Origin: Mesaphorura yosii
Taxonomy: Eukaryota; Arthropoda; Collembola; Poduromorpha; Tullbergiidae
DNA: 64,000 nt
Assembly: GCA_009869945.1 (NCBI GenBank)
Contig: WIXG01000274.1
Location: forward strand, 44,793 to 108,792
Direction of reading: 5' to 3'
Translations under genes and position numbers: made by a program
Shown here: piece after piece, positions 3,001 through 36,134 of the stretch
Layout of the letters: each line of letters begins with the position of its first letter
Position numbering within the stretch: position 1 is the stretch's first letter
The notes under the pieces: generated by a model
Told to the model about the DNA's origin: nothing
Database searches by the model: none
Seen by the model: only the letters and a program-made list of their open reading frames with translations

Positions 3001-4135
3001 GCTGCTAGACTCGGTTTAAGTGTTTTCCTTCTTGGAAGAAATCAATGTTCCCTTTCGGGTAAAGAAGCGGAAAATTATATTAATAAATTGTTTAAGGGAT
3101 TCTTGCAAGCTCACCTCAGCCAGAAGCGTTGCATGTGTTAGCAAGGCGTGGCAGGCTGGAAAGCCTGCTTTGACTTTGCTGTCCCGTGCCGTGGCTATGT
3201 GCTCTGCGATTCTAGGCTCTGTATAGCAGTTGTAGAGGAAATTTATAGGCTAAGACAGGCTGGGTCGATTTAACTGGTTATGAATGTCGCTTTCTCCTGG
3301 GCTCTCTTTTTTCATCTTCCATTTTCCACATTACCGTCAAGGTGAAAGTTTGGGCACTACTTTCTGTAGGTACAACTTGGTCTATGGTCTGACTCTCCGC
3401 AGTCTGCAGCAAAATGGATAGCGCAGTGTTAGCGCTTTACGTGCATTGAAATCGCAGGTCTCTTTCAAGACGTCTCCTACCAGGACAGCGTAGACTGTAG
3501 AACGAGCAATTTTTAACCCAGACACATTTCAGGACGGCATGATAAAAACTTTCTGTAAAGTTCGTGTCTATGTACATGTGGACGGGCGACTGCAGCCTGA
3601 ACTTTCTCAGAGGAATTCGTATTGGGCATGAGGAGAGAGTGAGCCGAGCTCCCTACTTTGTTTCGTCTGAGCTCCTCCTTGCACCATTCCTGGTATCCAG
3701 TACAGAGTGCGGGTCCCGCCTGCCAAGGACGACGGTTGGGCTCACACTTGCGTACAGCTGCCTCACAAGTCTCGACTTTCTCTGCTGCTCCTTTCTCGTG
3801 CTCCGAATTCTGATAACACATTTCACTTCTGCTGCACAGTACACGGAGCTCGTACACTGCATTATAGCTGATCCCTTTTTATTTGTCAGGTCTTCAGCTA
3901 CCAGCACTCTACCTGAACTTTCTCGTTAATTTCTCTTTGTTGAGTACTGCATTTATGTTAATGAGGTGAGTTAATAAGTGCAAGTCTGTGTGCAGCAGCA
4001 GCTGAACTTGTAAAATTGTACAGAGTTTAAATTGTTATCAACAACTGACCTGTGATTAAAGCCAGAGTAAATTATCCTGTAAATATTCCACGTATCAGAT
4101 TCACATATCAGAACACAACTGACAATCGTCCATAA
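1..4135. other. 5' flank of the cholinergic locus, no gene recognised
   Basis: This is AT-rich DNA upstream of the first ChAT coding exon. Open frames here (up to about 120 codons near 3.5-3.9 kb) occur on both strands at once and have no recognisable domain, good start context or matching splice sites. By comparison with other animals, the promoter and 5' non-coding exons of the ChAT/VAChT transcription unit should lie here or further left, but I could not place a transcription start. Confidence 0.6.
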
Positions 4136-7100
4136 AAGTATGCGTGCTTAATTCAATCATCTCGGCATCAACTCCGCAAAAACAAAGGAAATTGTCACTA
4201 TTTTCTTCGCATTGACCTGTTCAACAAAGTCGTCAAAATTTCTCGTTTCGGGATCCAGAATTTGAGCGGACTGCGGGACTACTGGAACAACCGAGTAGGT
4301 CCCTACATCACCGAAGTCTCAAGTAAGTCGAAACTCTTGACACTAAGCAAGGCTTTGAACGAAAGGCGAAAGGCAAATTCACGAAATGAGATTATGGCAT
4401 TGTACGTGCGTGCACGCATATTCACGTATTGGCGTTTCGCATACGATATGGTGAATAACATGAGACACAAATCGACTGTTTCATCTCGTCACGTTCGTTT
4501 CGTGGTTGCTGGCAAGCCATGGAATGAGAGGAAACTAAAATTAGATTAAACCCATTTGAAAGAGTTTTCAATTGAAATTGAAGATGTTGCTCGGAGGGAG
4601 AAAAGGCAAGAAAATGTGTTATTGCACATGATTTGTTTGCGAGTTCTTCAAATTGAATTTGGTCCACAGTCTACCAAAGGCATCGCGTTGAAAAGCGAAA
4701 AGCTGCGCCCAAATTTGATGCAAGAATCCTCGCTGTGTTTTGCTTTTGGCTTTGTGGTACGAGATTTCTTGATAATACCCACTTGACATGGCAAGTGGTG
4801 GTCAAACACTGAATTAGCCATGACCATTATGCTATTATCGCATTGTGCACGGTTGTCTCTTCGTACAGATTTCGATTCGAGCCTCTTCACTTCTGCTTGG
4901 CCAGACTAACGCGTAATCCTTTTGTTGAATCAACCAACCAACCAGCCATCAAGTTGAGCCTCTGTGAGCGGTGAGCGGCAGGCGACCGTTTAGGAAAATT
5001 CCTTGTTGCAGGCAGAGAAAGAAAGAAACTTGTTTACTGGGATTGAGATGAGGATTTTCCCAAAGATTACGAAACCAAGCTTCCTCTGATCGCTAGGGAA
5101 GGGGAATTCTTTCTCCGAATGAATGAAACTCAATTCTTCGGACAATTCAAAGTTGATGTTGCGAGTTCCTGAATTGAAGCGCTTTGTGTGCCGTTTAATG
5201 TCTTAATAATTTCTACATCAATTATTACAACAACCTCAAGTTAGTCGGCCGCTGAAGAGTGGAAGATATCCGAATTGTGGTAGAGGACTCAAAAGCTGCC
5301 GAATGTTTTAATCCTTTATGCTTGGAATAGACTGGAACGCTCGGTTGGAACGTTGACGGTTGACGTTCCAATGTTGAGTGTGAAGCTTTCTTGGAGTTGG
5401 AGACATTTGACGAAAGTTTCTCATTTTATTCACGCCAGGGAGTCCTTCAGGTCGAAGACTTGGCTTTGACAGGGCAGAGTAATGGCGTTAAAATTTTCCA
5501 CCGGATTTGAGGAATCGACCATTCTGACATTTTCTATTTCATTTGGAAGCTAGAAAAATGGCAGTGCAAAACTGTTTAATAATTCTGAAGGTGCGAATAC
5601 TTAATCTGTGGTTTTTTAGAGCTATACTATTCTTCTTTCTGTACTATGCTAAGCGGTTGAAAGTGAGCAAAAAGGAACTCAGCTACCCCAGGCAAGGGGG
5701 TCGCGAGAGAATAATGGGAAAGGACCACCTCTGGCAGAAGTTTCACTCGGCCTGGTTCCAAAAAGAAAATCCAAAATCGTTAGCCTCATGCATTTTAATT
5801 GAGTTTATCCTATTGCGTTGTTTAATATTTGGTTTTGCTTTTCGGTTCGCATGAAATTATCACCGCAGTGCTGCGAGCTTTACAAGGACAGAGAACACAT
5901 TCACATTCCTGGTATAAAAATTGTGTGTAACTCTTCTGTCCCGTTGTAACCTCAAAAAATAACATAAATTCTGGTTTACTGAAAAGAATTTCATCGTAGA
6001 ATTGACATTTTCGTTTAAAAAGCGAATGCAGGGTGAAGTGGCTACTGGCCAGCGGCGGAGGTTAAGAGGAGAAAAGAATAACAGACTGAAATAACTTGCA
6101 TTGAGACGAATAACAAGCGATGACGATTGTGTGAGAATATTTACACAATGCAAGTGCAAATGCAGAGGGAAAGGCCATAAAAAATTCTGTCCGATATTGA
6201 ACTATTGTGCAATGTGAAGGGTAAACTCTCATGGGACGAACAAATCGTGTCTAGTCTAAACTCATGTGAATGTACAACGCGTCCTGTGCGTTAATCTATT
6301 ATTTATAGGGAAGCATAACATATCACATAACGCGAAGAAGAAATGCATTTCTTCAGGAGAGTGCTCGGGGTTTAATTAATGAAACCTTGTGCCTGGAGAT
6401 GACCTTCGTCTAAAATTACACAACCTTGTCGGTTTTCGGAGGGAGTTCATTAAATCCTCGAGCTTATCCTCTCCTCCAATGTGGCTTTGAGGCTTCTGCT
6501 TCCAAGGAAGTGATGTAGTATGGCAAAAATAGAAATACAATGGACTAAATTTAATATAAAGTCAAGGCTACTCAACGACGGCCTTCGCCTTTTAAAACGT
6601 CTGACAGAGCTGCCAGGGCTCACGAAAAGATCTTTATACTTGAAGATTGACATTGCACTTCACAAGATTCAATTTAGCAAATATTTCTTAGAATTTTGCA
6701 CTTCATTCATGTCTTGGTCCATAGCATGGCCGAGATAGTACCAGCAAACCTGTTGTGTTTGAGTTGGTATTTCCTTGTATTTCCTCGTTTATGAAAGACT
6801 TGAAAGTGCAACATGGCCCAACCCAAACAAATGTGTTGGATTTTTGGACCCTGCTCGCTGCTCTGACGTCCACAAAAGGGATATGCACACTGAATCATAT
6901 TTTCTGTAGCTAGAATTATTTTTTAAATTGCAAGCATTAGCAAAGACATTACGGAAGCAGTAATGCGACAATGAATGAATGAATGAATTTATTAGGTGCA
7001 GTGCACAACACACAATACACATTAAATGCTTCCATAATGCGATGCTATACAAAGCGAAATACATTTACATTTTTTCTCAAATCCTCACCAGTCATCCGCC

Positions 7101-10100: not shown

Positions 10101-13100
10101 CTTTGCTCACTTCACTGAAGAAAGTGCAGGAAGGATAAGTTGGGGATTTGTGAGACACGTCGCACTCGCACGGTGCTTTCGAAATACCTGCAGATAACCA
10201 CTCCCTGCTTTCGTGCCGTCAGTGTCGGTTCCGGAGAAGCGACAAGGACAAGTCGGGAGAAGAAAGGAAAAGGAAAGCTACAATTCAAATGCACATTGAG
10301 AGAAAGAAAGGCGAGTCAATTGCCTGGGGACATGAAATGTATGTGAATTGACAAAGGCAGGGAAATACCAAATACGTAAAGTGTACCAGCTCAGGCTCGA
10401 ACATTTCTCCTCCATTCGAACCAGTTTGGAAAGGCACGTTTGCTCATTTTGTTCCCAGGAGACTCCACTTCCTATTTTGCAGGACGGTAGAAGTAGCCGA
10501 GCGGAATTTCGAGCGAATCAACTCCATTAAACAAGCAAACATCCACCGACGAGCCGACAGAAAGAGAGCGAGAAACCCCAAATGCAAATCTGTGATGATC
10601 GAATCAGCAGCACAAAATTAAGACATAATACACATTACATCGTTCTGTGATACGTCATTGAGAGAGGAAAGCCGAGGATTTAAAGCTGATTTCCGTGCTT
10701 GAGAAGCAAAACAGGAGTCAAGATGCCGCAATTACCGATTTTGAATTTGGAGATCGCGGAGATCAAGGATTTTGTCATCACGAAGCTGGAAGAACCGAAA
10801 GCTCAAAGGAAGATGGTGCTTGTCATCGTGTCGATCGCCCTGCTCCTGGACAACATGCTGTACATGGTCATCGTTCCTATCATTCCAGACTACCTCCGAC
10901 GAATCGGAGCATGGGAGACTCACACCGAGGGCGGGAGCGAGGTGACCGAGGCGCCACGAGAAATCACGTTCAAAAACGACACGGGAACGTACATGTACAA
11001 GGAACCTTCACGGACTAAGATTGTGAGTGGAGTGCTTGTGTATGAAGGAGAAGACGCCGCGATTGGAATGCTGTTTGCGTCGAAAGCGATGGTGCAATTG
11101 ATGATCAATCCGTTCTCTGGTGCTCTCATCGACAAGATTGGCTACGACAAACCCATGATGATTGGACTCACCATAATGTTCTTATCCACGGCAGTCTTCT
11201 CGATCGGAAGCTCGTACTCGCTGCTGTTCTTTGCGAGAAGTCTACAAGGCGTGGGCTCAGCATTCGCAGACACTTCGGGGCTAGCCATGATAGCAGACAG
11301 ATTCACAGAAGAGGGCGAAAGAACAAAGGCTCTTGGAATTGCGCTGGCTTTCATATCCTTCGGTTCTTTAGTTGCTCCTCCGGTGAGTACTTTTCTGGTA
11401 CAACTTTCCTGTACTATCGTCCTAGGTGTTCTAAGCAATCCTTTCGGCTTTCGATAGTTTGGAGGACTGATGTACGAATTGGCAGGCAAAGAAGTCCCAT
11501 TTTTAATTCTGTCGCTGGTTTGTGTGGCCGATGCGACGATGTTGTATTTTGTGATGAAACCGATCAAGGCGCAGCAAAAAGAGCAAGGCATCCAAAAACC
11601 GAAAGGGACTCCCATCTGGGTCCTACTCATGGATCCGTACATAGCCTGCTGGTAAGTGACAACTCTACTTGCGCCCATGCCTTGCAACAGCGGCTAACGC
11701 GGCGCACTATTTGTTTACAGTGCTGGGGCACTTGTAATGGCCAACGTGTCGTTAGCATTTCTCGAGCCCACAATCAGTGTGTGGATGATGGACACTATGC
11801 ACGTCTCTCAGTGGGAGCAGGGCATGATTTGGCTGCCTGCTTTCTTCCCTCACGTCGCCGGTGTTATTGTGAGTTTCCACTTCTTAACCATTCAGGGTGT
11901 GGGCACCGGATTTACAGTATGCAGTTCAAACATCATTCGGGCGCGTTGCTAATTGCAGGTGACCGTGAAGCTGGCTGCGCAATACCCTCAGTATCAGTGG
12001 GCGCTGGCAGCGGGTGGTCTCGCTCTGGAGGGTGTTTCTTGCCTCATCGTGCCATTCGCAAAGTCATACTGGGTCCTCATGATTCCAATCTCAGGAATCT
12101 GCTTCGGCATAGCGCTGGTTGACACCGCCCTCCTGCCGACTCTGGGCTACTTGGTTGACTCGAGATACGTATCCGTCTACGGAAGCATTTATGCCATTGC
12201 AGACATTTCGTACTCCATGGCGTATGCCTTCGGTCCCGTCATCGCTGGTCGAGTAATGGAGTCGATTGGGTTCTTAGCGCTAAACTTAGGAATAGCAATC
12301 TCCAATCTGATGTATGTCCCCGTGCTCCTCTTGCTTCGGCACATTTACGACAAGGGATTCCTGGACGAGGCGAATGTGCTCATGAAGGACCCGCCCGACA
12401 AGCAGTACCAGACGTACGTCATGCAAGACAGACAACAAGCGGTGCCCGACTACTCCAAGAAGTACGGAAGACTTGACGACGAGGACGACGAATACAACAG
12501 CTCGATGGGTCATCGGGTCACGTTCCAGGAGACGAGCATAAGTGACCGGGACATTAGTAACCGAACAGCCACGAACGGGCCTTCATCAACACCTTACTAC
12601 CAAACACAACCTTCGCAACAGCAGCAGCCACCGCCGCAACAGGAGCCGAACGATCAAAACACGTTCAATCCCTTCAAGAGCCTTGGAGGAGGCGGAGGTG
12701 TTAGCAATCCATTCCGATGAAAGAGCAGAGAATTAGGCTGTTAGAGGTAAGAAGCTGGAAGCTGCTGGTGGAAACAAAGAGATGATAGAAAATTAGATTT
12801 TAAATCCTAAACAAGGAAGGATGAAGGGAAAAGATGCAAGGCACAATGCGATATGCAATGAAATGAAATGCAAGATAGACGATGAATTTCAAGAAGGATG
12901 GCGAATCTTCGATTTATCGAAATACTGTTTTCTGTAAACGAGAGAGAAATCTCATTGGCTGTGGCACCAAAAGGATAATACATTTCATAGCTGTAAGAAT
13001 AGTTAGGCAATATTAATAGCAATGAAGAGTAGTAAATGCATAAAATTAGATTCTATTCTAACGTTGATTGTTGTGCAAAAGAGAGTATTTATAACGAGAA

Positions 13101-19100: not shown

Positions 19101-22100
19101 TCACCATTCACCCGTCCTAAGAAGTCCCGCGACCACGACGATGTACCGCGCCTGAGCCATTGCCTTGCTGAATTTTGCCGTGGAACACTTTTATCTCATG
19201 GGCGAGTTCATTCCAGTTTAGTTTTAGGCAAACCCGTGCAGCATTGTTCAAATAATAATAATGGCCGCATTTATTCCCGGAAAAGTAAATACACAATAAT
19301 TTTATGAACGTTTCCCTTGGCTGGGCTATTAAACATTCACATTGCATTTTACGCTTAACTCTAGATTATAAATGTGATTTTTTAATAATGACAAATAAAG
19401 TGTAAAAGTAAAAGCACGACTGTCGTTAGACGTTACCGCGCCTGTGGATATTGTCTCGAATTTCGGAGATTGCGATGTGCCAAGCACGTCGCATGTCGTC
19501 CTTTCGAACTTGTTTGCTTTTGCGAATCATGAACTCCACGACACCCTTGAGAATTAGTTGAAGAATTCATTCCTTTTCCTTGGAGCCATAAAACTAGAAC
19601 TTCGAAAGGAACTTCCTTCACGCTTTCAATAGAGTTTCTATTCCAAAACGAAGGTAACACGGACAAGACACGGACACGTTTGATAAGTGGGACTTCCTGC
19701 TGGAAGTATTGGCTAAATGCCTGGATGAATATTCAATACTGCTAGCCTCCTCCAACACAGTCTAAAAAGTCTCAATATTTGGGTTGCCTTCAATCCTGCC
19801 GAAGCCGCTGAAATGTTTATTCTTTTTCTATGAAACGCTGTCAATAGTACAAGCTCATTAGTTCTCCTGTCTTATGCTCTGACGTAATGTTGCGCAAGTA
19901 CGTATTAACCTGGCGAAGTTTCTTCAAATGCTGAAACTCAGATTTCTAACCTCGCTTGCGTTTTGCTTAAGTTTTTCACTTCAGAATATATCATCTACTA
20001 AATACTCAATAACGTTTACGCAAAGCAACCTTGAGTTCAGCTTTATTTTAATGAGCAAACAAATAATTTTTCACAATATCTGTTAATAACAAGTGTGATT
20101 GTACTTTAACCGTGCCAATTTCCATCAGCTCAGCAGCAGTCTGGCCTTCTCACCGAAGATTCTGGTCTAAGAACTTTAGATGAAGGTGTGGTAGGTGTAC
20201 GGAACTCCATATTGGTACGTGTAGTATGTGCTGTAGTACGGGTACGGGGCCAGGTAGCCAAATCTCGGATGGAAGCCATATCCATATCCGTATCCGAGGC
20301 CGTAAGGTGCATACCCAAGGCCGTAGTATGCGTAGCTGTTGGACGATTCCAAATCTGCGGACACTTTCATGTCGTCTTTCACTTCTTTGGCGCCCACAGC
20401 CACTGCAGCGCCCTTGGCCATCTCTTCCGCTGAGAAAATGCCAACCACCAGGCACATGAGAAGCAAGGCGGAAATCTAAACAGATAAAAAACGTAGAGTC
20501 CTCAGCATTTGTTAATTTACAGTACTTGGCAGTCAAAATTCTATAATTTTCGCTTATTCTTACCTTTAAAGCCATTTTCTTGGCTGCCAGTAGAATGTGC
20601 CGAAGCCAAACGTGTGGGAATCTGATATTAGACTGATATCGCGTCATTTGTGCGCCTTCTATTTATAATATTCTTCTGGAGAAGATCGTATCAGCACCTG
20701 GACTCCATTTTTTGTCCCACACTGGATTCTCGCCAACTGCGGACTTGTGGAAACTGGGGCAGGACTGTGCATGATATGGAGAAGTCTGAATCTCATCAAA
20801 TGTGCGTCAGAGCCATAGTACTACAACATATGATTACATAACAAATTCATTCACTGAATTTTCGCAGCAGCACAGTAATTAAAGAGCCTCCACATCGTAT
20901 TTCTCACCAGCATAAGCTAAGAAAGAGCCATTATGTGATGTTTTATTACTCTACTCTCGACGCAGCAGTGCATGAAGTTCGAGTTCAAATTAGTATTTGA
21001 GAATATTTTTTATTACCCAAGGTGAGCCGCATTCGTAGGCTTTGTGTTGTCGAATAATGCTTACTGTAATACTAATTCATCGGAGACATCCCATTCTAGT
21101 CTTCCGGTGGCACAAATGGTGTATTTTAGAATTTAGGAAACTCGTAGACCTAGTAAGGGAGGTTTGAAACTCGGAACCCAAATTAGAGTTTAATATTGCA
21201 GCCTTCAAAAGAGCCTTAGCCTCGCTGAAGCAATGATTCGTCAACCGTAACATAACAATTGTAATAATTGTAATTCTTTATCTCAATCTTTGAGGATTAA
21301 GCTACTACCCATATGCACGTCTTGAATTTTTGCAATGCAATTTTAACACATCTTACTTATACAGTGCGAAATTACAAATTGCGGGAATTTCCAACTGGAG
21401 GTACGCTTCCTTCGTTAATGAGAACTCACATTGCACTGAAGGTACGCTCACAATGCATGGCAATGCGAATGCTTTCAAGAATTGAGTTGTTTCAGTTAAT
21501 TTGCGTCGTCAATTCAGCAGGAAATCCACCGCCAGCGTTGAAAGAAGCGCAGGCGGAACAAAAGTTTTGTCGACAGCAACTTTTTATTGTAATTTGGATT
21601 TCAAATCACGTTCTTCGAGCGTTGTATCTCTTTTTAGATTTTTCTTTCCCATTTCGGCGCTGTCCCAGAGGACCAGAGCAGAAAACTATTTCTCTCATTT
21701 CATTGTGTCCTTTTGTTCGAGGAAGAATGATGATTACATTCTGTATCGTTATAAAGTCCGACGCACGCATTCCATTTCTTTATTGCACGCACGTACCACA
21801 GGCACGCCAATCTCGTCGTGGACGTCCACAATCGCCTGTCAATGCCAAAATCGCTAAAATGATGCTGGTGGTTGTAATTTATAACATACATTCATTCATG
21901 ACTTCACATGTTTTAGGCTGGCGAGGTTCGGTGACTGGAATTTCGGGTCGGATTTTGACTCGAGCATCTTCGCTTGTGACTTCCGGCCTCGGAATCAACC
22001 AAGAAGATGTGGACAAGGTAAGTCTAAAACTACAGTCGCCTCTCGAACAGAAAATTGAAGTGGTTTGACATTTAGAGAAAGGATTAATAACTCGGGACCC

Positions 22101-25100: not shown

Positions 25101-28100
25101 CTTCCCGCGTATGTTTATTTACTGCAGTCATGAATAAAAAGAGTGGAGTAGTCTCCCGTGACTGCAATCCACTTTGGTCTATTATATTTACTCATGTTGC
25201 ATTTAACCCTTGCCTTGCGTTGTCCTCGCCTGGGTCCGGTCCAAGATGCATTCGCGTGCTCGCTCTTGCTTTCAACTACAAAAAGCTCTTTTCGGTAATG
25301 TTACCGTGGTCAATCAGTCGTCCGTCCACATTTGTTCATTTCATGGTCAACAGAAATCAAATATTCACTGCCGCACAGCACAGCAGAGTAAACTTAATTT
25401 AGTTAATTAAAACACCGTCGTTCTTCGAGATGAATGAAACGCGAGTGAGAGCCAGACGAACGCAGCCGAAGCAAAGAATTCTTATTTCCATCCGTGTCTT
25501 ACCTGCTAATAAATGACTGCACTTCGTCGCGCCGCGTCGCATGCGTGCGTGCAGGTTGTTTGCGTCTCATTTGAGCTTGCAACGTGCATTGCCCAAGAGT
25601 TTTGCCGTGCACGTAAGTGTGTCATGCCGCCTTCGCTGCAAGCCAGCAGCGGAAATCGATAACTCGAGGAGAAAATTCCAATTTGGAGGGGAATAAATAA
25701 TTGAGTGATGTTTCTCGAAAGGGAAGCAGAACGGGACGGCACGGGCACGGAGCGAGAACAAGAGACCTGGCTTAAATAACACAACGCGCACCGGCATAGC
25801 GGGCACACAAAAACTTCGTCAACATCCCATCAAAATTTCATGAAGTTTTTCCTGGCCCTGCCGACCAAGCAAGCATACAAAACAATGAGAATGAATGGAA
25901 GAAAGAAGCATACAGCACGGCTGCATGGCACACCTTTACAGCCGGACTATAATAAGATGCTTCGCCGTATAATTCTTGATTCTCTTCAAATGAAAGTGCA
26001 CACAACAACGCGAACGCGTGCTTTCCACTTCCACCATAAAAGAAAGTAAAAGTACTGTATTAAAGCACGGGGACGGATTCAGGTACGGCAGACGATATGC
26101 TGTTGTATTGTGTGCCAGGAAATTCATGAAAAATAAATGGACTTTCTTTCATTCTTGCTTCATGCACTTATCCATTATCCTTCTTCCCCTCGTGATAATT
26201 CATGGGTCTACACTGCAGCAGAGCGCGTTGTGTGCCTGCCACCTGCGAGGCTTCGACACGACACAAACTGCAAAGCAAACCCGACTGGGAGTGAGACATT
26301 TTGTATCGCATCGCATGAGCAATAGCAAGGTGAGAGAATGACAGTCTTAAATAACCGCACGACTAATTAAGAACATAATCTCATTACGCATAAAGCCAGA
26401 ATTAGAAGCCAGACAGGCACGGCGAGAGCATTGAGCTGTAGACCAGACTACAGATTACAGAGAAGTATGTGCGGTGGTCGGTTTCGGCAAGGGACCATAC
26501 GCGCAATTAGCAATTCAGATGTTCACACGTGTGGACGTACAATCTGTTGACACCACGATGACAATTGATGGCTGATGCTGAATGGCTTAGTTAGGCTAGC
26601 ATTTTAATAGCCAACACGGGCTGATCAATTTGCCTTTGCGGCTCATACAAATGAACTGGTTCGCTAATTAAAGCTAAATTAATTAAATTAATTCGTGTGT
26701 CATTCAGTCTGAATCGTGCAACTTGACCTCATTGAATTTGTCTGCGTAAAATTAACCTCAATAAAATATTTCCAGTCGAATCGCCATTATATTTCCAGGT
26801 ACAAACGCAGCTTATAGGCGGGCAAAAGTAATTAGTTTGAGTATGAAAGCGAAGGCGAGAGGCCAAACATTTTCTTTGCTCGGTCTTGCCCACGCCAGGC
26901 CACGCTTTTGACGAGAAGAATAGTTTTTGTGAAGTGACCGGAGTTTATTTTGATTCCGAGCAAAACACAAGACAGAAAAGGTAGGAAAATGTGGTGGTCC
27001 ACGTCCACCGAGTTTCGGGAGTGAAAGGGGAATTTGAAATAGAAAAACAAATACGTTCGTGTTCTTGCGAGGTCGCTCCATTAAGGAGAATCCACAAATT
27101 TGGAAGACCATCTCACATTACTCGGGACCCTTAGCGAGTTCACGTTGTAGTAATAATGTATGTAACGTTATCTCGGGAAGAAGAGAACAGGAAGAGGAGA
27201 AAACACAAATTTCGTGCAATTTTGTGCCATGTGTATTCGAACCACGCACATTACCGTAAACATTCATTCGTGATTCGTGCTTTCCAGTTGTAAATGCTCA
27301 ATGTGGGGCTGTGAAACTAAAAACTAGGCATTAATTTTAATGGAGATGTTCGTTTATCGTATTTTCCTATTTGTGCTGCTGGTTGCTGTGAAGAGAAAAT
27401 ATATACACATATAGTTAATGGTCCCACTTTCGCCTCCACGGGTCCACTATTGCGTAACAACTTCATTTCCGACACGTCTCAGTTTACTCTCACTTGCTCT
27501 TTTGCTTTTGCTGCCGCTCCTGTCTTCATTCATGTACTATATGTAACTACGACCCACTAATATCTGCCGTGCACATTAAACAATACAACACAAGACGACA
27601 AGTCATTAGGCTAATTATTTTGATTCTTCGTACATGATGCTATTAGCGGCATGTCCAATTATGCTCATTCTAAAAAATCAAAACAGCCTCGCGATTAAGA
27701 ATGGCCACAATTCGCACAAGATCAGGAGGAAATCTACCAACTTCCTGCTCTCGCCTGCGCCCGTGCCTAGCAATGGCAACTGTCTCCGGCGTCTTCTAAA
27801 ATGGGAATGGGTAAATGATATCATGTAATGCGGTTGAATATGACCACAGGCCATGTGCCATTGCCATAAATAACCATGACTCGTAGAGAATGCATGAATG
27901 CGCGGATGAATTGGGAACTTTGTGAGTTACACGTCATTCTTGTTTGCAGCAACCAAATCTTCCACGACTGCCTGTACCTGAGTTGGATAAAACACTGGAG
28001 CGTTACTTGGAAGCAATGCAGCCGATTCTGACATCGAATCAATTTGAGCACGTGAAAGAGTTGGCCAAGCAGTTGGAGGAGGGCGACGGGCCGGAGCTGC

Positions 28101-31100
28101 AGCATCAATTATCCGAACGTCAGATGAAAATGAAAAATTGGGTGAGACGTTAGCAGACAACAAGCACATCGTGGCAGGATGTTCGTGTTCAGATGAGTTT
28201 GATTATGATAATTCGATTTGCCGTCTATTTGTAATACGCAGGCTTACGATTGGTGGTTGAATGATATGTACTTGAACAATCCAGGTTAGTGTTTTTCGTG
28301 TTTTTGCGTTGAAGTGAATGGCATGGAATATCTAATGAATTTTCATGTCTAGGATGTCTGCCCATCAACTCGAACCCTGGAGGAGTTTTCCCATCACAAA
28401 CATTTCACTCCGTCGATGATCAATTAAAGTTTGCAGCTAAAATCACAACTTTCCTCCTCGACTTCAAAGACAAGCTTGACAAGTAATCATATTACGTCAA
28501 TTTCCTCCTCCCGCACACGTACGCGCTGTGATGAAGTATTCAGGCACTTGCACTTTTCACCGCTGCTCTGCGGAAGAGATTTTCATTAAATTCCTTGATC
28601 TTTGAAGCTTGCATTTAGGGAAAATTCAGAATCGGCTGAAGGTTAAACTTTTCAAGAAGTTCCGTTTTTGCTAATACAGGCTACAGCTTGTTGGGAGGGT
28701 AGTTGATTTTTTTCTATTAGGAGGTCAGGTTCAGGTGTCTTTTGCATTCATTCATGGCGAGTGGCCATAACACGTCGTTTGAAAAGGAGCTTAGCATCTG
28801 ATCTCACATCTGATGCCTGCCTACGCGCTTGTTTACTCACGCCTGCCCGCCCGTGCACTGCACTTCGTTAGTGGCAAGACGAAGAGCGGTGTAGCGCAAT
28901 AACGAACAATCGTAAGTCAAATCCTCAGGAGAATTCGTGTACTAGGGATTCTTTGCTCAGCAAATGCGATGTGATCTTGTTTACTCTCCCCTTTGCCTTT
29001 TTTCTACCTGCTTAGCATAACTCACTTAACTTTCTTTCTTACACTCGCGCATTTTTATTCTGTGCTGCCTCAGTCGATCTTCCACGCTCGTTTGCATACA
29101 AACAAACAAAAGACATAAAACCCAACAAAGGATTACCAGACGATTGTCGGGGATGGGAAATGCTTCGTTGTACCAGACTTTCGTATGGTTCAGCTCCTAA
29201 ATCGAGTCAGTAGAAGTTCAACTCTACTTGTTAACGTACTTCTCGAAGTGTTGTTCCATGAAATAGATCTCTGACAATAAGCAGAGAAAAATAATACCTA
29301 CTTATTCTTGATATAAAAATGGACTCCTAGCACACACGCTTATGAATGTGAGTCGTGAGTCAACAAAAAAGATGAATAAAGATGCTATTTTTAGACGCAG
29401 AAATGCAGATGTCAATGTCAAGATTTACTCTAGCAATTCCTACTTCCATGCGAGAACGGCCAGGGCAGGCTAATGAAAAAAATGTAGCCAGGAAATACAT
29501 GTGCAAGCTCTGAACATTGCGCTGTGAGAAAATGAGAAAGTGAAATGGTGAAAGTGGAGAGAAATCCGTCTTTCTTTCGTCACTGAGTGAGGGACCTCTG
29601 CCGTGTGCTCGATAAACTCGATCCAGTGAGATGAAAGTGCTTGGATCCAGTGCTTTGTAAGAATTTCTAGCAGTCTGAATTTCATTTTTTATCTTAGGAA
29701 TCAGATTCCGGTGGAAAAGGCAACAAGTCGAGAGCCCGGGCAGCCACTCTGCATGGCACAGCACTACCGGTTGATGACAACTTACCGAGTGCCATGCTTG
29801 CCCCGTGACTATCAACGGGACACGTCAACCGCTCTCGTGGATCACATCATTGTGGCCTACCGCAAACAGTTTTACAGCTGCCCAATCCGCACGGTGGAGA
29901 GACGCTTGTCTGCGAAGGAGATCTTTGATCAGCTTAAAGTCATCGTGGACTCTGAGCCACCGAGCGACTTGGAGACTCCTGTTGGGATTCTGACGTCCAT
30001 GAAGAGGCCGGCTTGGGCTGATCAACGAACTAAACTGCTTGCTGGTACTTTGAACATTTTCTGTATTAATTTGCTGATGTATAACCAGTGCCACTGCCAA
30101 ATTTCCAGAGGAAATCAACAAGCAATCACTCGAAGAAATTGAAACCTGCTACTTCATCGTTTGTCTGGACGAACCTCTTCCGGCAAAGCGATTCAATAGT
30201 TCGTTGGCCTCAACGTCAGTCGATCGAATACAGATCGCGAGTAACGGGAGAGATGAAACTAACATCATGCATCAAATGCTGCATGGCGGTGGGTCAAACT
30301 TCAATACTGGTAATCGATGGTTTGACAAAACTATTCAGGTATGTCATATCTTTGACAGCTTCATGCTTAAGACGACAATAAAGCCTCTAATTTGATTTGC
30401 GTAGGTAATTGTGTCATCGGATGGAGCCGTTGGAATTTGCTACGAACATTCCCCGGCTGAAGCCATTGGAATTTTGAATTTGTTCGACGAATTCTTCTCG
30501 TCGTCACAAAATGGTATCGAGGCGGGCAAAGAGGACGTGGAGGGCGAGGCGGACTTGAAGCAACCGGTGGCTCCACCGATCCGTCTAGAGTGGGTCATCT
30601 CGCCTGAGATGAAACGATACATTTCTGATGCAGCTGTGACAATTGACAAGTAATTGAGTTTCTTAAGTATGAGCACTACAATAAATTAATGCGCAGGGTA
30701 CATTAAAGCTTCATCATTTTGCGTAGGGTCATTTCGGACTTGGACTACACTGTGTTCCGCTACGAAGGCTATGGAAAAGAATTTATCAAAAAACAGCGCG
30801 TGAGTCCAGACGTTTACATCCAGCTTGCACTCCAGTTGGCATACTACAGGTTACATTTCTCTTAGACCTCAATACAAATGCAGTAAATCCTAATTTGGAT
30901 TCTGCAAAAATTGCAGTCTTCATAAGCGAATGGTCGCCACATACGAAAGCGGTTCCACTCGCCGCTTCAAGCTCGGTCGCGTTGATTGCATTCGTTCCAC
31001 AACGATGGAGGCCCTTGAATGGGTAAAATCTATGCAATCCGGGGTGAAACTGGATGATCCAACCCACGATCAAGCGAAGAAGTTTCACTCGGCCGTCGAC

Positions 31101-31530
31101 AAGCAAACAGTAATCATGACAGAGAACATTTTGGGCGAAGGAATTGACATCCACCTGCTCGGCCTGAAGCAGCAAGCGCTTGAAATGGGAAAAAGCGTAC
31201 CACCGCTCTTCGCCGATGAGACTTTTGGAATTGCAAATTATTTCGCACTATCTACGAGTCAGGTATGTTTTGCTAAATTCCGCAAGCAAATGCTAATTTA
31301 CTAATTTACTGTTCGTTTAATTTATCTTGCAGCTACCCACGCAAACGAATCAGTTGATGGGTTACGGGGCTGTCGTTCCCGACGGTTATGGGTGTTCATA
31401 CAATCCGAAACCGAATTCACTCATTTTCTGCACTGCTTCATTTCATTCGTCCCCGGTCACGTCTACGACGAATTTCGTACAAAGTCTTCAGAATAGTTTA
31501 GACGCGATGCGGAAGCTTCTAGAGCAATAA
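4136..31530 (+). CDS. ChAT: Choline acetyltransferase, 11 coding exons seen
   Basis: This enzyme transfers acetyl from acetyl-CoA to choline to make acetylcholine in cholinergic neurons; it belongs to the carnitine/choline acyltransferase family. Exons read: open part 4136-4322, then 21917-22017, 27950-28141, 28242-28284, 28353-28482, 29698-30044, 30109-30338, 30405-30649, 30727-30849, 30917-31262, 31333-31530 (TAA). All junction phases agree. Family blocks appear in order: LPVPEL near the N-terminus, [28 protein letters not shown] with [17 protein letters not shown] (catalytic His codon at 30447-30449), [37 protein letters not shown]. Exons two to eleven give 650 residues, near full length for an arthropod enzyme. 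The first exon ends in phase 1 (ITEVS, then SWRG), matching the position of the first junction known in Drosophila. That exon has no ATG in any frame from 4143 to its donor, so the start is unresolved: either a non-AUG codon or another exon upstream. VAChT lies inside intron 1. Confidence 0.95.
4323..10722 (+). other. ChAT intron 1, part upstream of VAChT
   Basis: No coding exon is recognised here. Open frames on both strands (for example 139 codons at 8374-8793 minus, and several at 9.4-10.5 kb) show no family signature. If VAChT mRNA shares the ChAT leader exon, as in other animals, its acceptor should lie just before 10723; candidates are the AGs ending at 10703 and 10714. A tetranucleotide microsatellite sits at 6971-6989. 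Confidence 0.6.
6971..6989. repeat. (ATGA)n tetranucleotide microsatellite
   Basis: Between four and five perfect copies of an ATGA/TGAA unit lie in the first ChAT intron. The same unit recurs at several other non-coding sites in the window. Confidence 0.8.
10723..12720 (+). CDS. VAChT: Vesicular acetylcholine transporter, nested in ChAT intron 1
   Basis: This proton/acetylcholine antiporter of the synaptic vesicle membrane belongs to the major facilitator superfamily (SLC18). Four exons (10723-11382, 11458-11651, 11721-11868, 11959-12720, TGA) give 587 residues and 12 predicted membrane helices. Helix 1 is at about residues 31-54 and contains the conserved Asp43 in [17 protein letters not shown] large lumenal loop follows, with a glycosylation sequon at Asn85. 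The MFS loop motif [12 protein letters not shown] is at about 133-144, and [17 protein letters not shown] opens the second half. The cytoplasmic tail is acidic (RLDDEDDEY) and then rich in Gln, Pro and Gly. The ATG at 10723 has A at -3 and begins the conserved N-terminus; an upstream TTG in the same frame is not needed. The three introns are only 75, 69 and 90 bp. Nesting in ChAT implies joint transcriptional control. Confidence 0.97.
14340..14365 (+). terminator. Candidate VAChT poly(A) signals
   Basis: Two AATAAA hexamers (14340-14345 and 14360-14365) lie 1.6 kb after the VAChT stop and are followed by a T-rich stretch. Assignment to VAChT is inferred from position only. Confidence 0.3.
17699..17717. 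repeat. (AAACGT)3 hexanucleotide tract
   Basis: Three tandem AAACGT units lie in the ChAT first intron. No function is evident. Confidence 0.6.
20042..20047 (-). terminator. Candidate poly(A) signal of the Gly/Tyr-rich gene
   Basis: AATAAA on the minus strand, about 130 nt downstream of the TAA at 20176-20178. Confidence 0.45.
20176..20575 (-). CDS. Small secreted Gly/Tyr-rich protein, cuticle-like, antisense inside ChAT intron 1
   Basis: Two exons: 20564-20575 (ATG plus three codons, donor GTAAGA) and 20176-20475, giving 103 residues. The first four codons join a hydrophobic core ([16 protein letters not shown]) to form a signal peptide, probably cleaved near SAEE. A short charged and Ala/Val stretch follows (about residues 20-45). 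The C-terminal half has repeated G-Y-G and Y-Y units (YGLGY occurs twice, then [22 protein letters not shown]). There is no cysteine beyond the signal region and no chitin-binding RR motif. Short secreted proteins of this composition are typical of arthropod cuticle or silk-like matrices; that role is inferred from composition. A very short first exon interrupting the signal peptide is common in cuticular protein genes. A TATA box, initiator and poly(A) signal are all present, so it looks like an independent transcription unit. Confidence 0.85.
20632..20667 (-). promoter_or_regulatory. TATA box plus TCAGT initiator of the Gly/Tyr-rich gene
   Basis: On the minus strand, TATAAATA begins at 20667 and a TCAGT initiator lies at 20636-20632. 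This puts the predicted +1 A at 20634, about 33 nt after the first T of the TATA box. The resulting 5' leader is about 59 nt. This is the best core promoter I can see in the window. Confidence 0.65.
20668..21916 (+). other. End of ChAT intron 1 with a long open frame into exon 2
   Basis: From the ATG at 21313 the frame stays open without a stop through the ChAT acceptor at 21916 and across the exon to 22068, in the ChAT reading frame. This could be chance or an alternative ChAT first exon. The upstream translation shows no recognised motif. Confidence 0.4.
22018..27949 (+). other. ChAT intron 2 (5.9 kb), no gene recognised
   Basis: The intron is bounded by GTAAGT at 22018 and TGTTTGCAG ending at 27949. 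It contains ATGA/CATT tetranucleotide repeats (about 22659, 24006, 24731) and short frames on both strands, none with a coding signature. Confidence 0.7.
24731..24748. repeat. (CATT)4 tetranucleotide microsatellite
   Basis: Four copies of CATT, the complement of the ATGA unit at 6971, lie in ChAT intron 2. Confidence 0.75.
28483..29697 (+). other. ChAT intron between the fifth and sixth coding exons
   Basis: A 1215 bp intron with donor GTAATC and acceptor ATCTTAG. The flanking codons join as DK then NQIPVEKA, with phase 2 preserved. Nothing else is recognised inside. Confidence 0.75.
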
Positions 31531-34445: not shown

Positions 34446-36134
34446 CTACGTGAGACACACCGCAAAAAATATCACATCAAATATTACGACAAATATTGGG
34501 ATTCCAATTTTGAGCCACGTTTCAATTCTGTTACTTAGCTTATCTTCTGTATCTTCTTTCTCCTGAAATTGTAAATTTAATAGTTATTGCCTTGGACATG
34601 TTTATCGTTGAATGTGGAGCAATAAAAACATGTTAACTTACTTGTGTCACACTGGAATCCCTCCTAACAGTTGTAATTAGCATAGTGAAATTGTGAATGA
34701 AGAGGATGAGAACAATTGCGTTTATCACACTGCACCAAACATCAAAGGCGGTCACTGTTGCAGTTCTCGGAGAATTTACGAAGTGAAGCTGCGCGACACC
34801 AGTTGTCAGAGCCATAATGAATCCATTGACAGCCAGTCGTATTAATTGCACTTGGACGGGGCTTAGTTCGCTAGAGCATCCGACAGATTTCTGGGACGCC
34901 TCTTCGCCAAAACTTTCGGCTCGTGGACTGCTGGCCGTACGGAAGAATAATGTCAGATAGGCCAGCAGGGCAAAAACGGCGAGGGGAATGATTGTATGTG
35001 TCATGGAACGCATTCCGCTCCGACGCAGGACAATGTGCATTTGAAGGGTTGCATGCTGTCCATCATCCAAAGTCTCCTTGAACGACTTCTGTCCCACGGA
35101 ATGCACATAATACTCTGGATCTCCGACTTGGATATCGTCTGCTGTGATCAGCCCGTTCCAAACCATGTCGAGATTTATCAAATTGTAAGCAGCTGTAACG
35201 AGTAACCAAAATTGTCTAAAAGATGTCCAAGTCCCAAAGCTCTTTTAGCTAAATAAAGTGAATAAAGTTTAAGATATCGCTCACTTGATTGTAGTTTGAT
35301 GGCACACGCGTATTTATCGAAAGGGTATTTCATGAAGGACATTGTGGGGCAAGAGATGCGTGTGGACAGCCTGCGAATTGAGTTGAAATGACATTATTAC
35401 CAATTTCACGCGTCACGTGGTGCAATTTAAGCAAAGGATGGTATGCACTAAGGGGTGTCGGGCCACAATTTTTTATTTTTGTGATTAATAGGCCTTAGTT
35501 CATAGAAAAAGCGGAGCTAGTCGTATAGACGCCTACCTCTGACTAAACGTTAACTCGCCCTCCGGCTTTAGTCGGTAAGTTCGCCTTGTGGATTCTTCAG
35601 AGCGATAAGCACCGGCATTTGTGATATAGACGTCTGGTACCCAAATCTTGTGAGGAAATTCGTTAATGAACACAGTCTCCTTTCCAACTAAACTATGAAG
35701 CCTCGGGTCGGTCCACGCTTTCGTCAGCACAAAATCCATGCTGAACTCCATGTTGTTGTGCTTGTTGATGTCCATGATCGACATGATCTTCAGGGACACA
35801 TTACAAATGTCTGCAACTGCCCCGTGATTGGGTCTCAAGTACGGATCATACTCCTTGGAGACATTCAGCCCCGACGCGGTGGACAAAAATCTGAAAGCAA
35901 CGAGATGAATGAGTCATGTCACGAGGGAGCCATCACCTGCACTTCATGGCCTTTACAAAACAACTTTTACTTGTCTTAATCTGGTCATAAGGTCCACGAC
36001 GGGAATTAAATTTATGACCGAACAATGAATATAAATGAGCTCTTGACTTACAATGAAATTAAGATGAGAGTCTTATGCAATCGCCTGTGTGCGTGACCTG
36101 CGTGAGACGACACTGGGATGGCTCTTGAACACAT
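34446..36134 (-). CDS. Divergent Cys-loop ligand-gated ion channel subunit, five exons
   Basis: A pentameric receptor channel subunit of the plasma membrane. Exons in transcript order: 36134-36052, 35890-35537, 35370-35285, 35192-34642, 34562-34446; 396 residues with all phases consistent. There is a signal peptide at about 18-35 (KTLILISLFLSTASG), split by intron 1, with two sequons just after it (Asn37, Asn58). The extracellular domain has WTDPRL (87-92) and KIWVPDVYITNA (109-120). The Cys loop runs from C153 to C168 with YPFD inside. M1 is at about 238-259, M2 at about 289-311 and M3 at about 322-345. A very short intracellular loop (about 25 residues) precedes M4 at about 374-395. Oddities: 14 rather than 13 residues between the loop cysteines, no PAR motif before M2, and no clear cation-type Glu ring. 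Ligand and ion selectivity cannot be predicted. The short M3-M4 loop recalls divergent arthropod subunits rather than classical nicotinic receptors. Confidence 0.92.

Follow-up and report, generated by a model that had tools for sequence, protein, structure and literature searches.

At which codon does translation of choline acetyltransferase (ChAT) begin in the collembolan Mesaphorura yosii, if the first coding exon of the gene contains no AUG? We address this question in a window of 64,000 nucleotides, the whole stretch of DNA analysed (contig C274, WIXG01000274.1, positions 44793-108792, in a 93-Mb assembly). In keeping with an arthropod, the assembly gives 66 matches to the cuticle domain Chitin_bind_4; four weak ones to the odorant-binding family PBP_GOBP hint at a hexapod, and COX1 had no match. 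Positions are window coordinates unless the contig is named. The features that enter the argument are collected in the table.

The cholinergic locus and its first coding frame

ChAT is modelled with 11 exons on the + strand, and the catalytic protein is encoded by exons 3-11 (27950-31530). A PDB search with the model returned choline acetyltransferase as the top solved structure (467 bits, E 6e-139), with carnitine acetyltransferase at 412 bits, and by full-length similarity the product is closer to ChAT than to carnitine acetyltransferase. The alignment to solved ChAT spans query residues 71-683, and the first in-frame Met falls inside this aligned part. With a 116-residue ChAT query, one scan of bacterial and archaeal genome contigs and one of viral contigs returned no relatives.

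The gene for the vesicular transporter (VAChT) lies between ChAT exons 1 and 2, in intron 1 and on the same strand, and this nested layout is the customary one for the cholinergic locus of animals. The first 220 residues of its product match vesicular acetylcholine transporters (E 1.5e-59), and its coding region scores +0.19 per codon. A seeming short intron (11383-11457) separates VAPP from FGGLMYE within it.

Exons of a high-affinity choline transporter lie on the + strand at contig positions 27850-30600, about 14-17 kb before window position 1. They are thus some 18-21 kb upstream of ChAT exon 1 and on the same strand, so that genes for uptake, packaging and synthesis are clustered. The first of these exons matches High affinity choline transporter 1 (E 1.6e-28); the remaining ones were assigned by eye. 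A second copy of the transporter on contig C182 shares 79% identity over 29 residues. Directly downstream of ChAT, a Neur_chan_LBD match on the - strand (E 3.5e-12; 35533-35913) marks an exon of a ligand-gated channel of the Cys-loop type.

Table. Features of the ChAT-VAChT locus in window coordinates (a slash marks a splice junction)
Feature	Position	Strand	Remarks
TAA closing the ChAT frame upstream	4133..4135	+	
Upstream ATG, three codons then TAA	4140..4151	+	M R A stop (ATG CGT GCT TAA); not in the ChAT frame
ChAT exon 1, coding part	4211..4322	+	5' limit uncertain; donor CAA/GTAAGT
ATT, candidate start	4211..4213	+	Sole one of nine with G at +4 (cttcgcATTgac); C at -3; codon-score maximum begins here
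CTG, candidate start	4217..4219	+	T at both -4 and +4, G at -3 (attgacCTGttc); reads LFNKVVK...
TTG, less likely candidate start	4262..4264	+	A at -3, A at +4
CTG, less likely candidate start by codon score	4271..4273	+	C at -4 and G at -3 favourable; C at +4 unfavourable
Putative VAChT leader	10483..10722	+	Follows acceptor 10483; upstream ATGs at 10582 and 10595
TAG ending the exon 1 frame in a putative exon 1-VAChT mRNA	10488..10490	+	37 codons from CTG 4217; 232 bases before the VAChT AUG
VAChT coding region	10723..12720	+	ATG 10723; within ChAT intron 1; seemingly interrupted by short introns
In-frame ATG in intron 1, shortly before exon 2	21898..21900	+	Rival start if an intronic promoter exists
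ChAT exon 2	21917..22017	+	101 bases; TTTTAG/GCTGG...GACAAG/GTAAGT
ChAT exon 3	27950..28141	+	Conserved core begins (LPRLPVPEL); spliced frame reaches its first Met here (LEAM); phase 0 start
ChAT exons 4-11	28242-28284, 28353-28482, 29698-30044, 30109-30338, 30405-30649, 30727-30849, 30917-31262, 31333-31530	+	TAA at 31528

The exon 1 frame, whose codons start at positions congruent to 2 mod 3, has no stop over 4136-4322, from the closing TAA up to the donor GT at 4323. ATGs near the exon occur at 3955, 3961 and 4140 and then not before 4386, so that 4143-4322 is free of them in any frame. The ATG at 4140 opens only its three-codon frame. A preliminary description of this DNA had claimed the extent of the open frame, the lack of any ATG, the three-codon upstream frame and the presence in frame of four near-cognate codons (ATT 4211, CTG 4217, TTG 4262 and CTG 4271), and a scan of the frame bears it out on each of these points.

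By itself, the absence of ATG over 180 nt is ordinary. Stretches of that length without ATG make up 6.6% of the + strand and 3.9% of the - strand of the window, and 12% of dinucleotide shuffles of the segment itself lack one; likewise, 337 of 993 open 62-codon stretches in the window on the + strand, and 244 of 772 on the - strand, have no in-frame ATG. The absence is noteworthy here because the coding frame would have to begin in this exon. No AUG stands in the upstream coding frame between the in-frame stop and the conserved core, and in the spliced frame a Met is first reached at residue 119 (numbered from 4136), which lies within the core, after LPRLPVPEL. An AUG-started product of an exon 1-2-3 mRNA would therefore be without LPRLPVPEL.

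The connection between exon 1 and the core depends on exon 2, which we located because its phase fits and because it weakly matches a fly ChAT sequence. Placed at 21917-22017, exon 2 links the exon 1 frame to exon 3 free of stops, with an A/GC joint, and provided that this placement is correct, the in-phase joining of exons 1 and 2 asserted in the preliminary description holds. For comparison, we took all phase-compatible open cassette exons within 4400-27900 with both splice scores at least 4 (n=11). Among these, 21917-22017 is first by codon score and third by summed splice scores. It is also first of the 11 in similarity to the fly sequence, a ranking that is not independent, since similarity led to the choice of the exon. 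An mRNA that skips exon 2 and joins exon 1 straight to exon 3 (27950) was ruled out, as the frame that it requires meets TAG 4296.

Coding onset and candidate start codons

Does the exon 1 frame look as though it is translated, and from where? Codon usage was trained on 31 of 68 loci (7780 codons, ChAT excluded), consisting of stop-free kinase, GPCR and acyltransferase stretches on contigs longer than about 60 kb. Over its whole length (4136-4321) the open frame scores just +2.4 bits, a value that 2.4% of noncoding open stretches reach. The higher score of 4217-4321, which arises after start selection, is +10.2 bits; it is matched by 0.2% of noncoding open stretches, and 79% of coding stretches score no higher. 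At +0.29 bits per codon this part is at the top of the 11 ChAT exons (the others range from -0.05 to 0.25). The part before it, 4136-4216, is noncoding-like at -7.8 bits, a value as low as is seen in 0.1% of coding stretches.

The best-scoring suffix of the frame starts at ATT 4211, with CTG 4217 trailing by one bit, and the observed best suffix score is reached by 38 (1.5%) of 2561 noncoding open stretches of 62 codons that overlap one another. Judged by codon usage, coding sequence sets in around these two codons, but the measure is too coarse to single out one. The boundary method is imprecise: in simulations it came within 5 codons of the boundary 43% of the time, and it was calibrated on a smaller set of 14 genes (3555 codons) instead of the 31-gene set. 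In VAChT it overshot, putting the start at 10750, nine codons past the ATG at 10723.

Together, exons 1 and 2 resemble the fly ChAT N-terminus (LFNK/LFSK...LRD/LRG...W) with shuffle p of 0.0035 and 0.0135 under two gap costs. The exon 1 peptide taken alone shows no resemblance to that sequence beyond chance (p 0.42 and 0.47). Both proteins presumably share an N-terminal extension ahead of an LPxxPVPxLD core.

Nine near-cognate codons stand in frame in exon 1: the four named above, AAG 4136, ATT 4151, ATT 4238, ATC 4253 and ATC 4307. Weighted by codon score with an equal prior for each of the nine, ATT 4211 and CTG 4217 take 80% of the weight. For mammals, a review of non-AUG starts gives CUG as the most efficient codon, a demand for G at +4 and better performance of AUU in some contexts (PMC9082881). 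None of the nine candidates in frame combines all three features of the efficient mammalian context (C or A at -4, A or G at -3, G at +4). We therefore make no choice between ATT 4211 and CTG 4217, which codon score favours over the other candidates as the most likely starts. No stimulatory RNA structure or downstream hairpin stands out in 4187-4322 (z 0.86), and a hairpin as a stimulator of initiation was dropped on this value. Simple core-promoter patterns, sought in 3701-4216, turned up no TATA box and no fly initiator. What they did match, an initiator in loose form at 3823 and DPE-like sequence at four sites, is not convincing.

ATT 4211 is a single base away from ATG, carries G at +4 and sits at the codon-score boundary. 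An error of assembly or base calling could thus conceal an ordinary ATG, for example at this codon, a possibility that we regard as very improbable. No second copy disagrees with the assembled bases, a weak point given that the locus is the sole match in the genome, and fly ChAT is reported with the same missing-AUG oddity (PMC4528330).

Other possible sources of an AUG

The preliminary description had offered an unseen upstream exon as its alternative. Such an exon would bring the AUG and join somewhere in 4136-4262, with acceptor 4259 (phase 0) as the most plausible site. The two ways of scoring this acceptor disagree. A generic matrix accepts it, placing it at the 93rd percentile of AGs in the window and within the range of the ten ChAT acceptors. 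By a matrix derived from ChAT's own acceptors it scores -0.1, compared with 2.98-11.98 for the ten real ones, and all four AGs in 4136-4262 fall below the lowest of the ten. Stronger acceptors at 3945 and 3996 were considered and rejected: both lie upstream of the in-frame stop TAA 4133 and so are unable to deliver an AUG.

One concrete phase-0 candidate for such an exon lies nearby: it opens with ATG 3570, spans 41 codons with a codon score of 6.2 and ends at donor 3692, which scores a fair 4.8. Counter to this, across about 24 kb upstream (20 kb before the window plus the window start), no AUG exon of any phase among the candidates listed beats the best reverse-strand control, the choline transporter stretch excepted. 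In addition, codons 4211-4258, which would be intronic if acceptor 4259 were used, score as coding-like (about +4.5 bits over 16 codons). We consider an upstream AUG exon unlikely; the alternative is weakened by the local matrix, even if the generic one leaves it standing.

First exons that carry an AUG and bypass exon 1 were also surveyed. In window positions 1-21900 there are 12 candidates joinable to exon 2, compared with 21 on the reverse strand, and one of them has a codon score above 3 (3.1). Joinable to exon 3 are 20 AUG exons, and the sole one with a codon score above 3 is VAChT itself.

The rival hardest to exclude is a promoter within intron 1, because it requires no splice. The ChAT mRNA would then start before exon 2 and be translated from ATG 21898, and exon 1 would be a noncoding leader, mainly that of VAChT. 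The exon 2 frame is indeed open upstream as far as 21301, with ten in-frame ATGs, the last of which (21898) lies by the acceptor. This open upstream sequence is noncoding-like, however, at -0.22 bits per codon over 206 codons, and an intronic promoter would leave both the coding-like composition of exon 1 and its exact phase unaccounted for. On this evidence we judge the intronic start quite improbable. As a separate observation, the + strand open frame of 255 codons at 21301-22068, which spans intron sequence, exon 2 and beyond, seems long for chance in spite of its noncoding-like score.

A proposed shared leader and its counterparts in other animals

Taken as a whole, the evidence makes it fairly probable, in our estimation, that exon 1 is both a leader of the cholinergic locus and the source of a ChAT N-terminus begun at a near-cognate codon. 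The non-AUG reading is supported because the open exon 1-2-3 frame runs into ChAT protein. Initiation without AUG, as proposed in the preliminary description, thus emerges as the best-supported reading through what the DNA itself shows, namely the open frame, the matching phases, the lack of AUG, the splice-site sequences and the coding-like composition, and stops short of proof.

In the mechanism that we propose, exon 1 would be the 5' leader exon of the locus and would at the same time encode the ChAT N-terminus. Ribosomes would scan past the tiny upstream frame at ATG 4140, and some of them would initiate at a near-cognate codon, with ATT 4211 and CTG 4217 the likeliest. From there they would read about 35 codons of exon 1, go through exon 2 and continue into the catalytic core. 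By splicing, exon 1 would also be joined to the nested VAChT, where its frame would end at TAG 10488, ahead of the VAChT AUG. The weak start would let most ribosomes move on to VAChT, whether through leaky scanning or by reinitiating. Any strong AUG in exon 1 would come at a cost to VAChT, and leakiness may be the reason that none is present.

The splice sites before VAChT are consistent with such sharing. Acceptor 10483, 240 bases before the VAChT AUG, ranks first among the AGs of the window by the local matrix, and exon 1 is probably spliced to VAChT at this site as well; a generic matrix gives a second strong site at 10459. We also considered whether the exon 1 frame could run on into VAChT, and rejected this: the frame meets a stop two codons beyond acceptor 10483, or ten beyond 10459. 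A stop-free join in frame is possible only through the weak acceptors 10715 and 10718. The putative VAChT leader contains two upstream frames, 10582-10650 (22 codons) and 10595-10621 (8 codons), and it is not an AUG-free path because of these two upstream AUGs.

We can also imagine, tentatively and as something possible rather than likely, an old insect or arthropod device. A single weak near-cognate start in a shared exon would be decoded by splicing, either as the ChAT start or as a 37-codon upstream frame ending at TAG. With a single promoter, start-codon stringency would determine how much ChAT is made and in what ratio to VAChT, while gain of an AUG in the exon would harm VAChT.

The closest counterpart in arrangement is the cholinergic locus of the Ixodes type, in which, as here, intron 1 of ChAT holds VAChT in the same orientation; here a strong acceptor precedes it. 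An 82-bp exon 1 in Ixodes is common to ChAT and VAChT, as confirmed by RT-PCR (PMC7524744). Here such common use is inferred, for an exon that lacks AUG, would encode ChAT and would lead VAChT. The VAChT open reading frame occupies one exon in Ixodes, in contrast to the apparent short introns here (PMC7524744). A figure legend for Ixodes ChAT labels an ATG as the start codon, and the accompanying text leaves its exon unnamed (PMC7524744). As far as this legend goes, it speaks against the conserved translational control that the preliminary description had thought possible, at least across all arthropods, and because of it the splicing-decoded device cannot be assumed for all of them. Together with the upstream AUGs in the VAChT leader, it also weakens the idea that a shared leader imposes the constraint.

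Mammalian proteins initiated at CUG or AUU resemble the candidate here in their near-cognate start (PMC9082881). In examples given there an AUG start mostly follows downstream (PMC9082881), whereas here none occurs before the conserved core, and G at +4 is found only at ATT 4211.

The precedent nearest in kind is Drosophila, in which ChAT is among the better-characterised non-AUG starts, with Sugihara et al. 1990 cited for it (PMC4528330). The fly precedent given in the preliminary description is borne out at the level of that citation. In Drosophila melanogaster, as here, the N-terminal part of ChAT is reported to have no AUG (PMC4528330). The case here differs in that it is known from sequence alone, with a start codon that is a candidate only and an exon 1 that by itself has no clear match to the fly protein. 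Among the titles and abstracts of the matches listed from a partial literature collection, we recognised no report of a non-AUG ChAT start outside Drosophila. M. yosii ChAT is a probable new case of this already reported phenomenon, and gene predictors may truncate ChAT genes of this type. If the reading is true, it would suggest that selection maintains the non-AUG start, perhaps because the exon doubles as a VAChT leader, and it would tie the synthesis of acetylcholine, in a testable way, to the fidelity of start-codon choice. Besides Drosophila, another arthropod, with a very different N-terminus, would then begin a key neurotransmitter enzyme exclusively at a non-AUG codon.
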